Assembly: GCA_016177155.1 (NCBI GenBank)
Contig: JACOVU010000029.1
Span: forward strand, 1 to 35,407
DNA from: Candidatus Omnitrophota bacterium
GTDB taxonomy: Bacteria; Omnitrophota; Omnitrophia; Omnitrophales; Danuiimicrobiaceae
DNA: 35,407 nucleotides
Direction of reading: 5' to 3'
Shown here one piece after another: positions 1,948-32,774 of the stretch (its first letter is position 1; each line of letters starts with the position of its first letter). Both the position numbers and the translations under genes were made by a program. Below the pieces are notes generated by a model. That model was not told the origin of the DNA and did not search any database. It saw nothing but the letters and a program-made list of their open reading frames with translations.

Positions 1948-1984
1948 AGGTTTTGGAAATTCCACTATTGCATGGTTGGGTATT

Positions 1985-2087
1985 ATCCCACCACCTGCTT
2001 GTTTGCCACCTGTTGGTGGCAAATCTCTTTCGAGATGTAAGAGTGCGCGCTTAAAAGTGTGCGCTCTTATCAAGCAGGTGGTGGGAT
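1985..2087. repeat. Cloverleaf-type nested palindromic element (family II, copy A)
   Basis: Outer 17-bp perfect inverted repeat ATCCCACCACCTGCTTG (1985-2001)/CAAGCAGGTGGTGGGAT (2071-2087). It encloses hairpin TTTGCCACC-tgtt-GGTGGCAAA (2002-2023), mini-hairpin TCTC-tttc-GAGA (2024-2035) and a 13-bp hairpin with three G.T wobbles, TAAGAGTGCGCGC-ttaaaa-GTGTGCGCTCTTA (2038-2069). Confidence 0.85.
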
Positions 2088-2133
2088 TATAATCGAAGGG
2101 GAAGGAATTACCTACAAAAAATTTAAATGACGG

Positions 2134-13116: not shown

Positions 13117-13698
13117 CTATTTCCCCGTTTCAAGCAATTTAAATTCTGATGCCACTACTTTTTTAAAATGATTGCGGCGCGCCTCGGGAGCGTTTAAGGA
13201 TTGTTTGGTCTTCATGCGATCCTTGGACAATTTTTGTACCAAAGCAGAATATTTTGAACCAAATTCCTTTTCTAGTTTTTTCCGAAGCGTCTTGGCCAAA
13301 AGAGGACTTGCCCCTCCTGTTGAAATCGCGATTTGAAGTTTCCCGCGCTGAATGATCGACGGCACAATAAAAGTCGAATGCGTTGGATCATCTACCACAT
13401 TCACAAAAATCCCTTTTTTCTCGCACCATTCAAAAATAGTTCGGTTGAGCGCCTCATCTGAAGTTGCTGCCACCACAAGCTCAGGATTTTCTCCTTGCGG
13501 GATCTGAGATCCAAACCGAATATCGATTTTATTCGCCCGAGCAAACCGCTTAAAAGCCTTTGAACAATCATGGCTGATCACCAAAAGTTTTGCCCCTGCT
13601 TTGATCAGCGTCCGCGCCTTCCGAAGAGCCACGCCACCTCCTCCGAAAAGGAGCACTTTCTTTCCCTGAAGTTTAAGAAAAGCAGGATAGTATTTCAT
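13117..13698 (-). CDS. Precorrin-2 dehydrogenase / siroheme synthase N-terminal domain (Met8/CysG-N family)
   Basis: True start MKYYPAFLKLQGKKVLLFGGGGVALRKARTLIKAGA; NAD-binding plus STGGASPLLAKTLRKKLEKEF. The ORF track start at 13755 runs into a repeat element. Confidence 0.92.
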   Translation of the reverse strand: MKYYPAFLKLQGKKVLLFGGGGVALRKARTLIKAGAKLLVISHDCSKAFKRFARANKIDIRFGSQIPQGENPELVVAATSDEALNRTIFEWCEKKGIFVNVVDDPTHSTFIVPSIIQRGKLQIAISTGGASPLLAKTLRKKLEKEFGSKYSALVQKLSKDRMKTKQSLNAPEARRNHFKKVVASEFKLLETGK

Positions 13699-13805
13699 CC
13701 CCCACCACTTTCCAAAAATAAATCTGACAGCAATGCCGTCGTTATTGATGGACAATAAACATTATATTCGTAGTTCAATGCGTAGTATAAAAAGTGGTGG
13801 GGGAT
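13697..13805. repeat. Inverted-repeat element (family I, copy 1) from stop codon to start codon
   Basis: ATCCCCCACCACTTT (13697-13711) ... AAAAGTGGTGGGGGAT (13790-13805). Overlaps the TGA stop (13805-13807) of the upstream gene and the ATG start (13696-13698) of the downstream gene. Confidence 0.88.
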
Positions 13806-15226
13806 CATATAAATTTAAGACGGTTCCTCTCTAAGAATTCCTCAAACTCATTTTCCAACGTGAACTTTGGAATCACCCGCAACCCGCTCAACTCTTCCGC
13901 CGCTTCGATCGTTTCCTGATCCACAGGATCAACCATGGCAAGCTCCAGTGCATCATCTTTGATCGTGATCGGAACAACCCGATGATCGCGCACAAACTCC
14001 TCAGTTAAAATGCGGGCGAGGTCTTCGGTTAAAATATGGTTCTTAAGGCTCACATAACCCACTGAGAATTTCGACTCAAGCAGCTTCCCGACTTCACTGC
14101 TCGAAACCGCATTCATCCGAATCAGAACTTGACCGATTCTCTCCCCGGTTTCGACATGACGTTTGACTGCTTGATTGAGTTCTATTTCCGTAATGAGCCC
14201 TGCATCAAGCAACAACTGCCCAAGCGGTTTTGAGGTATCGCGCTTCTCATCGCTGGGTGAAAGCACTTCCAGGGACTCTTGAAGCGAGCTCAAGGGCATT
14301 TCTCGTCGATCGCGAAGATAATGACTTCCAGGTTGCGTCTTAAGATAAGCTTTCACTTCTGCGGCGTCACGAGCAACCTCCGCCATGCTGCGGTACGGCC
14401 GGTACAGATTCGTTACCGCTGCGATCGAAAGACTCATCAAAGGAAAAGAAACAGGAACACCGCTCCTGTTTTTCACGAGGACGGATTTACGTTTTCGGTC
14501 TGCATCCTCATAATGCGTCGGAATAATTCGGTCAAACTCTTGAAGGCAAAGTTGGGCAAAACGAGTTTCGTGATCCGTATCCGTCACCACTACAAAATCA
14601 TCACCTCCAATGTGGCCGAAAAAACTATTCCGATCCGCTTCGCTCAATTCAAGACATCTTGCAATCAATTGAGCCGTATGCCGAATCACTTGATCTCCCC
14701 GTTCAAATCCATATCGATCATTAAAAGATTTAAAGTGGTTGATATCCATATAACAAACCGAGAAAAGTTCACTTCGATCAATGCGTTTTCGAATGTTTTC
14801 TTCAATCGCAATACTACCGGGCAGGTTGGTAAGCGGATTCGCCTGAAGCCGTTCGCGGGCGCGGGTGAGATTGAGTTCAATCCGGAGTTGGAGCGAAAAG
14901 GCATCAAAGGGTTTAATCAAAAAATCGTCAAACCCGCGGTCGCGGCTCAAAACGAGCTCTCTGACTTCATTCTCCTCGGCCAACAACATAATCGGAACGC
15001 CCAGGCCGGTAATGCTCTGCTTCATTTTTTTGGCGAGGTTCACCCCATCCACCTCTTCCATCGTCGTACCCATTAAGACGAGATCGAAGCGAACCTTTTG
15101 AACCAAGCGAATCGCCTCATCGCTATGGGTGGCAATAAATACATCATAATTTCGAGCCAGAAGTCTCGCCTCTAGAAGAGCGAGCGTATCTGAATCTTTC
15201 TCTGCAATTAAAATTTTGTAACTCAT
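13805..15226 (-). CDS. REC-GGDEF-MshEN (T2SSE_N) protein, putative c-di-GMP signalling
   Basis: REC (ILIAEKDSDTLALLEARL), GGDEF domain with GGDDF motif (FGHIGGDDFVVV), C-terminal MshEN/T2SSE_N-like segment (PLGQLLLDAGLITEIELNQAVKRHVETGERIGQVLIRMNAVSSSEVGKLLESKFSVGYVSL). Confidence 0.85.
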   Translation of the reverse strand: MSYKILIAEKDSDTLALLEARLLARNYDVFIATHSDEAIRLVQKVRFDLVLMGTTMEEVDGVNLAKKMKQSITGLGVPIMLLAEENEVRELVLSRDRGFDDFLIKPFDAFSLQLRIELNLTRARERLQANPLTNLPGSIAIEENIRKRIDRSELFSVCYMDINHFKSFNDRYGFERGDQVIRHTAQLIARCLELSEADRNSFFGHIGGDDFVVVTDTDHETRFAQLCLQEFDRIIPTHYEDADRKRKSVLVKNRSGVPVSFPLMSLSIAAVTNLYRPYRSMAEVARDAAEVKAYLKTQPGSHYLRDRREMPLSSLQESLEVLSPSDEKRDTSKPLGQLLLDAGLITEIELNQAVKRHVETGERIGQVLIRMNAVSSSEVGKLLESKFSVGYVSLKNHILTEDLARILTEEFVRDHRVVPITIKDDALELAMVDPVDQETIEAAEELSGLRVIPKFTLENEFEEFLERNRLKFI

Positions 15227-15304
15227 CCCCCACCACTTTTCCTGATTAACTTTTCCAATCTAATCTTAGATCCGCTCACCAAATTGCAAAAAGTGGTGGG
15301 GGAT
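15225..15304. repeat. Inverted-repeat element (family I, copy 2) from stop codon to start codon
   Basis: ATCCCCCACCACTTTT (15225-15240) ... AAAAGTGGTGGGGGAT (15289-15304), 16-bp perfect stem. Overlaps the panB TGA stop (15304-15306) and the downstream ATG start (15224-15226). Confidence 0.9.
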
Positions 15305-21335: not shown

Positions 21336-21465
21336 CACATTTACTTTTTCTCGAATGTTGGGATCATGAAATTAAAAAACCAACCGGCTTCCCCGTTTAC
21401 CCAGTTAGAAATTTTCCTTACAACGAAATAAAACTATCAGTGGTTTTACTTTTAAGTTTCCCCGA

Positions 21466-21477
21466 TTTCTAACGGGG
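21466..21477. repeat. TTTCTAACGGGG repeat arm
   Basis: Identical to the right arm of the inverted repeat at 31375-31386. A degenerate partner CCCCGtttacccaGTTAGAAA lies upstream (~21391-21411). Confidence 0.5.
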
Positions 21478-21672
21478 TTTACTTTTAAAAACTTTTTTGC
21501 TTTTCTTCCCTACCACAACCGACTTTTTCTGAAAGAACCTTGTTCGTGAAAATGTAACAAACGAACAAATGGAATTTTAATGAAGGACAAACCACGTGTC
21601 AATACAAAAAGTAAAAAAATTTTTCTTCTACCTTTTCCCATAGGGAAGGCTTTCAGAAAAATACTTGACAAA

Positions 21673-26785: not shown

Positions 26786-28265
26786 TAAGACACAACGCAT
26801 CGATCAGTGCTTTTCCCTTATGAAGGGTTTCCCAATATTCGGCTTCGGGATCTGAATCGTAAACAATTCCAGCCCCTACCTGGAGATAACCCTTATTTTG
26901 ATACAAGATGAGACTGCGGATGACAATGTTCAGATCCATATCACCCTTAAAATCCAAGTATCCGATCGAACCGGTATACAAGTGACGCTTAAACGGTTCG
27001 AGTTCCTCAATAATTTCCATGGAGCGGATTTTGGGGCAACCCGTAATCGTTCCGCCCGGAAAAACGGCCCGCAGAAGATCGAACCGGTCATAACCTTTCT
27101 TAAGTTGGCCGACCACATTCGAAACAATATGAACCACGTGCGAATAAGGTTCAAGAGTCATGAGCTCACTCACCCGTACGCTGTGAGGTTTTGAAACGCG
27201 CCCCAGATCATTGCGTTCCAGATCCACCAGCATAATGTGTTCCGCCCGTTCCTTGGCACTCATGATTAAATCCCGACGCAACCTGCGCTCCATTTCAGGA
27301 TTTTCTCCGCGCGGTCTTGTCCCTGCAATGGGACGGGTCTCACATCGCTCGCCGTTGAGCTTGATCAAGCGTTCGGGTGAAACACTGGCAACCACAAGCG
27401 GACCAACTTTGAGGAAACTTGAAAAAGGAGAGGGATTAATGGTTCTCAGACGCTCATAAATGGCCTCTGGTTTGCCCTCATAATCGAAAGAAAACCGCTG
27501 GGATAGGTTCGCTTGGTAAATATCCCCTGCTTCAATATATTCCTTTGCCTTCAGGACCATTCGTTTGAAGGTTTGTTTCGAAGAGTCCGCTTTAAAATTG
27601 GAAATGTGGAAATTGTTAACAGTACCAGGTACGGCCGTGCCGGGTTCTACAGAAAAAGGGGACAGACTATAGTCTGTCCCCTTTTTCGCAACCGTACCTG
27701 GTACTGTCTGTTTTCCCATTTCTTCAACCGCGGCTTGTGCACGCTTGAAGGCTCGGTCAAATGAACCGTCTTTGGAGGGAATGAGATTGGCGACTAAGAA
27801 ATACTTCTTTTCCTTGTGGTCATAAACGAGGAGATCGCGCACGAAAAGAAGGGAAATCAAGTCTAACCGAAGGTCATCTTTCGCAAAATCAGGAAGGGCT
27901 TCAAACGCATGAGCAAGTTCATAACTCAAATATCCGACCGCCCCACCCGTAAAAAATGGCAGTTCATTCCATGTGTGACCTCGATAAGATGCAAACAGGG
28001 TTCTTAACTTTGAAACAATTCCTTCTACGTTTTTGGTTTTAAAAACGTGGAACGGTTTCCAACCGAAGTAAGAATACCGCGCTGTCTTTCCTTGATACCG
28101 AGTGCTATCCAGAAAAAAAGCGTTCTCAGAATGAATGAGTGCACCTTTCACCGTTGGCCATAGATCTTGTGCTGATCTGACCGTATGAACCAGTGGTACG
28201 GTAAATCCTTTTTCGTACCAGTGCTTCAACTTTTTGGGTGTGGTGGGCCAAGAAGAAACTGGCAT
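26778..28265 (-). CDS. pabB: Aminodeoxychorismate synthase component I
   Basis: IEAGDIYQANLSQRFSFDY, SPERLIKLNGERCETRPIAGTRPRG, HIMLVDLERNDLGRV, FPGGTITGCPKIRSMEIIEELE. Likely start MPVSSWPTTPKK at 28265. Confidence 0.93.
   Translation of the reverse strand: MPVSSWPTTPKKLKHWYEKGFTVPLVHTVRSAQDLWPTVKGALIHSENAFFLDSTRYQGKTARYSYFGWKPFHVFKTKNVEGIVSKLRTLFASYRGHTWNELPFFTGGAVGYLSYELAHAFEALPDFAKDDLRLDLISLLFVRDLLVYDHKEKKYFLVANLIPSKDGSFDRAFKRAQAAVEEMGKQTVPGTVAKKGTDYSLSPFSVEPGTAVPGTVNNFHISNFKADSSKQTFKRMVLKAKEYIEAGDIYQANLSQRFSFDYEGKPEAIYERLRTINPSPFSSFLKVGPLVVASVSPERLIKLNGERCETRPIAGTRPRGENPEMERRLRRDLIMSAKERAEHIMLVDLERNDLGRVSKPHSVRVSELMTLEPYSHVVHIVSNVVGQLKKGYDRFDLLRAVFPGGTITGCPKIRSMEIIEELEPFKRHLYTGSIGYLDFKGDMDLNIVIRSLILYQNKGYLQVGAGIVYDSDPEAEYWETLHKGKALIDALCLNV
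27619..27707. repeat. Compound nested palindrome inserted in frame in pabB
   Basis: Outer 16-bp inverted repeat ACAGTACCAGGTACGG (27619-27634)/CCGTACCTGGTACTGT (27692-27707). It encloses a 36-bp perfect palindrome GAAAAAGGGGACAGACTATAGTCTGTCCCCTTTTTC (27652-27687). Translated as TVPGTVAKKGTDYSLSPFSVEPGTAVPGTV. Confidence 0.92.
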
Positions 28266-29985: not shown

Positions 29986-30013
29986 TTGATCTTGGCTGGG
30001 AAACTGCTATAAT
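29986..30013 (+). promoter_or_regulatory. Candidate sigma70-type promoter for inositol-phosphate synthase
   Basis: TTGATC (29986-29991), 16-bp spacer, TATAAT (30008-30013). The -10 runs directly into the family II repeat. Confidence 0.5.
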
Positions 30014-30113
30014 CCCACCACTTGTTTGACAAGAACGCGATTTATGAACAAGCGCGTTCTTGTGTCTCTTCGAGATTTCACCCCGCACGGGATGAACAAA
30101 CAGGTGGTGGGAT
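30012..30113. repeat. Cloverleaf-type nested palindromic element (family II, copy B, inverted relative to copy A)
   Basis: Outer stem ATCCCACCACTTGTTTG (30012-30028)/CAAACAGGTGGTGGGAT (30097-30113), 17 bp with one wobble. Inside: ACAAGAACGCG...CGCGTTCTTGT (30029-30063), mini-hairpin TCTC-ttc-GAGA (30065-30075), TTCACCCCG..CGGGATGAA (30077-30096). Confidence 0.85.
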
Positions 30114-30180
30114 AATTCGGCTCTATTCGTTACCACACACTTCTAGAATCAATCTTCTGAAACAAAAAGGGAGTGCACTT

Positions 30181-31282: not shown

Positions 31283-31386
31283 CCCCGTTAGAAACACTTT
31301 CGTCGCAATAATAATAGAATATTCAAAGAGAGCACTGTGTCTAAATTGAGATCTTCGTGGAATTGCGCACCGGCTTTCTAACGGGG
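31283..31386. repeat. CCCCGTTAGAAA / TTTCTAACGGGG inverted-repeat element
   Basis: 12-bp perfect arms at 31283-31294 and 31375-31386, 80-nt spacer, located exactly between the convergent genes ino1 (stop 31279-31281) and pdaD (stop 31393). Confidence 0.75.
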
Positions 31387-31392
31387 TAAGAA

Positions 31393-32010: not shown

Positions 32011-32727
32011 TCACATTCTCAAGATGTTCCTCGCGTTCCCGCTGAAAACAGGCTCGCGCTTGGAGGATGGAAGTAAATATTCAAACTTTTTGATCTCGAG
32101 CCCCAAGTGGGAATAGGGAATGTCAGAAGCAAATACCACTTTATGCGCTCCCACTTCCCGAAGGATTTGCCCGGTTCGGTAGTAAGAAAGTGTAGAGGTA
32201 TCTAAATAAACGTTTTTAAGCTCTTTCGCGATCTCGATCGCCTCTCGAAATAAATCTTTCCCCGAATGAGCCAGTACAAAAAAAGTCCTGGGATAAGCTT
32301 TAAAAATATGATGCCACTCGCTTGGGTGGCAATTGGGTTCGTGGCCCGTATGGAGTACTACCGCTAATCGCTTTTGGTCAATCGCTTCAAAAAGAGGTTT
32401 CGCTAGGTGGGCATTGAACCGATCCGAACGCGGATGAAGTTTGACCGCCCGAAAGCCTAAGCGGACGGCGTGGTCAATCTCTTCAAAAGAAGCTTTCTTC
32501 TCATTGGGATTAAGTCTGGCGCACCCGATCAAACTCCGCTCGCGTTCAATCACTCGGGCAATCTTCCGGTTCATCCGAGCATAAGCAGGACCGGGACTTG
32601 CTTCATCAATCGGAAATATAACGCTCTTTGCAACCCCAAAACGCCTCATCACGTTCAGCATATCAGAAAGCGTTTGGCGTGCGCCATCGCGTGAATGGCC
32701 CAAGTGGGTGTGGAAATCGATGATCAT
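32011..32727 (-). CDS. Amidohydrolase-family (TIM-barrel) metal-dependent hydrolase
   Basis: MIIDFHTHLGHSRDG, AVKLHPRSDRFNA, VVLHTGHEPNCHPSEW, VYLDTSTLSYYR, KVVFASDIPYSHLGLEIKK. Confidence 0.88.
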   Translation of the reverse strand: MIIDFHTHLGHSRDGARQTLSDMLNVMRRFGVAKSVIFPIDEASPGPAYARMNRKIARVIERERSLIGCARLNPNEKKASFEEIDHAVRLGFRAVKLHPRSDRFNAHLAKPLFEAIDQKRLAVVLHTGHEPNCHPSEWHHIFKAYPRTFFVLAHSGKDLFREAIEIAKELKNVYLDTSTLSYYRTGQILREVGAHKVVFASDIPYSHLGLEIKKFEYLLPSSKREPVFSGNARNILRM

Positions 32728-32774
32728 CCCCCACCACTTTTCAGGTTGATAGATTCAAGAAAGTGGTGGGGGAT
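32726..32774. repeat. Inverted-repeat element (family I, copy 3) from stop codon to start codon
   Basis: ATCCCCCACCACTTTT (32726-32741) ... GAAAGTGGTGGGGGAT (32759-32774). Overlaps the TGA stop (32774-32776) and the ATG start (32725-32727). Confidence 0.9.

Follow-up and report, generated by a model that had tools for sequence, protein, structure and literature searches.

Cloverleaf-forming palindromes of Omnitrophota as mobile elements with a candidate SLX1-like GIY-YIG mobility nuclease

The palindrome described here, copy A, is quite probably a MITE-like derivative, without the nuclease gene, of a minimal palindromic transposon that an SLX1/UPF0213-like GIY-YIG nuclease mobilises. It lies in a 35,407-nucleotide stretch of an Omnitrophota genome (contig JACOVU010000029.1, hereafter the window), and related copies are dispersed through that genome (G000; 1.38 Mb, 147 contigs, 86% complete). 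We also lean towards the view that these elements form a new class, in which an autonomous transposon of ~320 bp has as its sole enzyme a minimal SLX1-like GIY-YIG nuclease that recognises its own cloverleaf-forming palindrome, re-forms the start codons and -10 boxes that it targets, borrows its start and stop codons, and exists as several arm/nuclease clades in Omnitrophota.

Results

Fold and limits of copies A and B

Copy A has a minimum free energy of -77 kcal/mol (z = -12.4), and none of 200 shuffled sequences was equally stable. The fold confirms, far beyond chance, the perfect 17-bp outer stem enclosing a short, a mini- and a long hairpin that a first-pass annotation of the window had described. 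That annotation placed the element at 1985-2087; the stem does extend this far, but its outermost A/T pair belongs to a target duplication, which leaves 1986-2086 as the mobile unit (Table 1). The duplication had been overlooked, as had the autonomous copies and the two kinds of target, -10 boxes and start codons, reported below. Copy B (30012-30113) has the three hairpins of copy A in reversed order and is the same element on the opposite strand.

Table 1. Element copies, their parts and their targets in the window.
Feature	Position	Strand	Evidence
Copy A, non-autonomous family II element (TCCC...GGGA, 101 bp)	1986..2086	-	Fold, target duplication, empty site in G024
Target duplication at copy A, TTA (TAA in gene orientation)	1983..1985	.	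Direct repeat
Target duplication at copy A, second TTA	2087..2089	.	Direct repeat
Copy A outer stem, 5' arm	1985..2001	+	Fold
Copy A outer stem, 3' arm	2071..2087	+	Fold
Copy A short hairpin	2003..2022	+	Fold
Copy A mini-hairpin TCTCTTTCGAGA	2023..2036	+	Fold
Copy A long hairpin; its loop is the nuclease-gene site in full-length copies	2037..2070	+	Fold and comparison
-10 box TATAAT struck by copy A, restored by the duplication and the element's terminal T	2086..2091	-	Empty site GGTTATAATACTC, G024
Copy B, non-autonomous family II element	30013..30112	+	Target duplication; empty sites in G090 and G093
Target duplication TAA at copy B	30010-30012 and 30113-30115		Direct repeat
-10 box TATAAT of the inositol-phosphate synthase gene, struck by copy B	30008..30013	+	-35 TTGATC at 29986-29991
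Family I element, TGA stop/ATG start junction, duplication TGA	13698..13804	-	Empty in G101, G093 and G024
Family I element, junction of panB stop and next start, duplication TGA	15226..15303	-	Empty in G101, G093 and G024
Family I element, 47 bp, stop/start junction, duplication TGA	32727..32773	-	Target duplication and reading frames

Target duplications and empty sites

At least 55 distinct complete palindromes were extracted from G000 by BLAST and arm patterns, all of them ended by TCCC...GGGA; this count is a lower bound taken from genome stretches. With the ends set at TCCC...GGGA, an exact 3-bp direct repeat lies beside 53 of the 55 copies, both families included, and the other two differ by a one-base mismatch. 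The duplicated triplet is mostly TGA/TCA, otherwise TAA/TTA, and TGG once. In gene orientation, copy A reads CTTCGATTATAA, element, TAATACCCAACC, against an empty AGTTGGTTATAATACTCCCCC in G024, and copy B reads AACTGCTATAA, element, TAATTCGGCTC, against an empty ACCTGCTATAATCCGACTC in G090 and ACCTGCTATAATCCGGCC in G093. The family I elements at 13698 and 15226 are missing from the orthologous sites of three relatives (Table 1). At the glyA-nrdR junction, one and the same nucleotide is occupied in G000 by an autonomous element and in G090 by a different, short one, and the site is empty in G024 and G093. Since orthologous empty sites exist in genomes of the same genus, insertion is proven, and the family of copies A and B is a mobile DNA element whose copies were inserted. 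It has the transposon hallmarks of many sites, target duplication and empty sites, and its short copies, gene-less and bounded by terminal inverted repeats, have those of a MITE, including the empty sites in relatives.

These duplications also bear on whether the palindromes are REP/RAYT-like elements, which a Y1 (HUH) transposase would move through their single-stranded hairpins. Dispersed palindromes with hairpin ends would suit such a system, and a search for a Y1/RAYT-type recombinase, proposed in the first-pass annotation, did locate one Y1_Tnp (PF01797) gene in G000; that gene, however, has neither element arms nor a long palindrome nearby. Y1 enzymes produce no target duplication, so that the exact 3-bp repeats largely refute this explanation, which we consider very improbable. 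Even less credible is an attC-like recombination site for an integrase, to which a folded single strand with inner hairpins would correspond: the elements are dispersed single copies with target duplications rather than cassette arrays, in line with the initial reading of copy A, in which inspection had found no GTTRRRY core. A tRNA search also found none, agreeing with that reading.

Families and spread

Family I and family II had been proposed to form a superfamily on the basis of a common arm core. The core is indeed common to both, as are the ends, the duplication and the target; the interior of the family I copies is weakly structured. Searches of G000 with up to 2 mismatches gave 154 arm matches, against 15 with the reversed pattern, and for family I 48 matches against 2. 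Across 85,462 species genomes, the pattern CCCACCACCTG N55-85 CAGGTGGTGGG was found in 87 stretches, of which 75 belong to MAGs of Omnitrophota. Two of the three Elusimicrobia matches have TGA duplications; an element scan of the actinobacterial matches yielded none, and we take these to be chance hairpins.

Composite arrangements were also observed. One locus (L127 221-462) holds a tandem pair of cloverleaf elements, the second lying within the TGA/ATG re-formed by the first. The window contains a perfect, REP-like palindrome GAAAAAGGGGACAGACTATAGTCTGTCCCCTTTTTC at 27652-27687, a relative of which is nested within a cloverleaf element elsewhere (L165 1020-1165), inserted in the loop of its long hairpin.

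The dyad is kept in DNA

An outer stem and three hairpins are present on at least one strand in all 34 short family II copies, and the architecture on which the first-pass annotation had staked its interpretation of copy A is thus kept in additional copies. In 36 copies, among which 23 different arms occur, 98.8% of the outer 16 pairs are Watson-Crick, and positions 6, 7 and 12-16 of the stem vary on both sides. Over 21 oriented copies, the ORF strand has 26 G.U pairs and the opposite strand 21. The dyad is therefore kept equally on both DNA strands, since wobbles are rare and symmetrical. The G.T(U) wobbles of copy A had been taken as a sign that a folded RNA or single strand is maintained; family-wide they show no strand asymmetry, and we reject RNA-level selection as a reading of them. 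We infer that the perfect dyads are kept at the DNA level, either through selection on a cruciform or through hairpin-templated synthesis.

A structured RNA or regulatory leader (a riboswitch, attenuator or translation switch) kept for the host would account for the strong fold and for the location in 5' regions, and the right arm GGAGGTGGTGGGATG could serve the next gene as a ribosome site. Against this stand the empty sites in relatives, wobbles without strand bias and unrelated downstream genes. An Rfam search, which the first-pass annotation had recommended, gave no match at the gathering threshold, and a relaxed search gave only matches far below it. We judge a host RNA leader to be highly unlikely. 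The arm itself, in for example L149 1050-1154, reads GGAGGTGGTGGGATG at the re-formed start codon and is plausibly a putative ribosome-binding site supplied by the element.

Insertion at start codons and -10 boxes

At 39 of the 45 TGA copies, the re-formed ATG begins a reading frame of 50 codons or more. At 28 of the 45, the element lies between such a start and an upstream frame that ends on that TGA and has the same minimum length, unless the contig edge leaves it open, i.e., at a former ATGA, GTGA or TTGA junction. By the same criteria, the background over all TGA sites of the window is 25.5% for the start and 2.6% for the junction. According to a hand-made, approximate CDS list, the window has 46 TGA/TCA sites in non-coding DNA against about 8 NTGA starts, and the bias toward NTGA is therefore not explained by non-coding insertion alone. 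Among eight clean TAA copies, five (A and B included) are in an exact TATAAT and one is in GATAAT; copy B struck a conserved promoter (TTGATC, 16 bp, TATAAT) in its -10 box. Oriented short copies are divided 13 to 8 in orientation relative to the target.

Insertion thus favours NTGA start codons and TATAAT -10 boxes, and it restores the host signal at the site, be this a stop, a start or a -10 box. This targeting may be active, directed at melted or accessible DNA, or may partly reflect survivorship; real targeting is favoured because the glyA-nrdR nucleotide was struck repeatedly.

Full-length copies encode a GIY-YIG nuclease

Two autonomous family II copies, of 320 and 329 bp, were found in G000; in each, the long-hairpin loop carries a GIY-YIG gene (PF01541, 8.2e-15 and 3.1e-14). 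The motifs of the family are present (YIG/R/E: VYLLRS..FYLGWT..R), placing the product among GIY-YIG proteins. Its nearest solved structures are UPF0213 (1zg2, E 4e-10) and SLX1 (7wme, E 0.008); in NCBIfam no family matched it. The nuclease has roughly 107 residues, and its frame spans both arms and all hairpins. It starts on the ATG of the target, reads M-I-P-P-P from the left arm, and ends with V-V-G-stop from the right arm on the TGA of the duplicated target. This exact layout is found in six elements from five genomes (L203, L204, L166, L206, L208 and L209) and also in a CCCC-ended variant (L216); L205, L207, L215 and L248 are diverged autonomous elements. Most autonomous copies of the TCCC-ended clade have no start or stop codon of their own and use the target NTG and the duplicated TGA. 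The short family II copies keep all hairpins and lack the gene.

Nuclease and palindrome are coupled across Omnitrophota

A homologue of the nuclease (E <= 1e-8) is found in 185 of the 384 Omnitrophota genomes sampled. Inverted repeats of at least 16 bp surround the GIY-YIG gene at 27 of 86 loci, against 1.4 expected when left and right flanks were swapped between loci. Six arm families were distinguished: A (CCCAYCACC), B (CCCCCACCACTT, the family I arm), C (CCCCACACCAA), D (CCCGCYCTTTT), E (CCCCGTTA) and F (CCCGCACCTT). On the nuclease tree, which has 94 columns and many poorly supported forks, the arm labels require 13 changes against a shuffled mean of 34.7. Arm family C forms one clade at 99/97 and B one clade at 100/99, and the A rows fall in one 12-row clade (100/96) with two unlabelled members, the A-like variant L207 and L226, which is truncated by a contig end. 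Across the sequences compared, arm type tracks nuclease clade. The two B nucleases suggest that family I of G000 also derives from a GIY-YIG element.

In the ACCCC-ended arm families, the 3-bp duplication is not equally clear, and for this reason the mechanism may differ between arm/nuclease clades. Seven ACCCC-ended GIY-YIG elements of clades B, C and D (L210, L222, L230, L274, L292, L301 and L309) sit within CGAAYTT...AAATTCG half-palindromes, which suggests a target other than that of the TCCC-ended clade. Gene-less CCCCGTTAGAAA / TTTCTAACGGGG arm pairs of the clade E type occur in the window at 31283-31387, directly 3' of the inositol-phosphate synthase gene, and at about 21395-21478. On another omnitrophote contig, a gene resembling the ATP synthase b subunit directly follows a GIY-YIG gene (L061 3281-3544) that has CCCCGTGAGA-type arms.

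The coupling weighs on a more conventional explanation, namely an ordinary MITE with TNA-type duplications that is moved by a DDE transposase, with the GIY-YIG gene as a passenger or an invading homing gene. Short copies, terminal inverted repeats and a 3-bp duplication look MITE-like, and the phylum has many GIY-YIG genes for which no arms were detected. Nevertheless, the autonomous copies with the same ends encode PF01541, arm family tracks nuclease clade and the nuclease frame runs through arms and hairpins alike; furthermore, DDE_Tnp_1 (PF01609), the one DDE family searched, has no match in G000, whereas 9 of 14 control genomes match. We regard a DDE-driven MITE as unlikely.

Proposed mechanism

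We favour the nuclease as the mobility enzyme because nuclease and arms co-segregate, and from the sequences we propose that it would catalyse the insertion. The autonomous form, of ~320-330 bp, is made up of a pair of arms in perfect complementarity (TCCC...GGGA), three hairpins between them and a single gene, that of the nuclease, which occupies chiefly the long-hairpin loop and which a host promoter or translation signal would express. The nuclease would then recognise cognate arms, probably in the form of an extruded cloverleaf, and cut both the element and a TRA target with a 3-nt stagger; the element would be joined and the gaps filled by host polymerase. Short copies such as A and B would have lost the gene and been moved in trans.

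Several points weigh against this proposal. The nuclease could be a passenger in an element that some other host enzyme moves; G000 is only 86% complete, and only two autonomous copies were found there. Known GIY-YIG enzymes usually leave 3' overhangs, which do not directly predict a 3-bp duplication. The target preference, too, is possibly in part selection against harmful insertions.

Discussion

Known enzymes of prokaryotic transposition belong to a few classes (DDE, HUH, serine and tyrosine recombinases, and Cas1). We call the element categorically new because its candidate mobility enzyme lies outside all known transposase classes; a more cautious classification would place it among REPtron/MITE systems as a new variant. 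If the proposal is correct, a GIY-YIG nuclease that alone mobilises a self-folding element would be a further class, and would be a candidate for the enzyme that moves other orphan palindromic repeats. The element would be smaller than the autonomous insertion sequences of which we are aware. Its insertion strategy, in which a start codon or -10 box is re-formed and the gene carries no start or stop of its own, would be a novel means by which a parasite is at once expressed and harmless. Searches of the open-licence literature found no description of such an element, and one in a subscription journal is possible; a 2006 survey of GIY-YIG proteins does not mention palindromes or inverted repeats (PMC1564403).

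Among known systems, SLX1 and UPF0213 are structure-specific nucleases and the nearest solved relatives of the enzyme encoded here. SLX1 acts on branched DNA, which a cloverleaf would offer. To our knowledge, nucleases of this kind have not been described inside mobile palindromes. GIY-YIG homing endonucleases (I-TevI type; T4-like phages, PMC2988022) are likewise encoded by selfish elements. They do not recognise their own mobile DNA and are copied into a cognate allele, and the same survey separates from them an SLX1-like minimal nuclease lineage (PMC1564403). In contrast, the nuclease described here is of this minimal kind, and its element is found at at least 55 unrelated sites in one genome, with duplication.

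The CGTC palindromic repeats are abundant, as are the palindromes described here, and their mobility enzyme is missing (PMC3733652). No CGTC-type repeats were found beside 92 GIY-YIG loci. Two family I elements (L192 2430-2620 and L198 2909-3096) contain a nested GTCATTGCGAGCGAAGCG... repeat that resembles the CGTC palindrome type, for which the mobility enzyme is unknown (PMC3733652).

The closest parallels are bacterial MITEs and REPtrons. The short copies resemble MITEs in being short, non-coding and dispersed, with terminal inverted repeats and target duplication, but their autonomous partner is only about 320 bp long and encodes a GIY-YIG nuclease instead of a DDE transposase. REPtrons combine REP palindromes with a RAYT, a Y1 tyrosine transposase (PMC2817692, PMC3733652), and share with our elements a small nuclease gene flanked by palindromes and many gene-less palindromic copies chromosome-wide. 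The elements described here differ from them in having a GIY-YIG rather than an HUH-Y1 enzyme, a gene inside the palindrome, a clean 3-bp duplication, start-codon and -10-box targets, and a three-hairpin cloverleaf.
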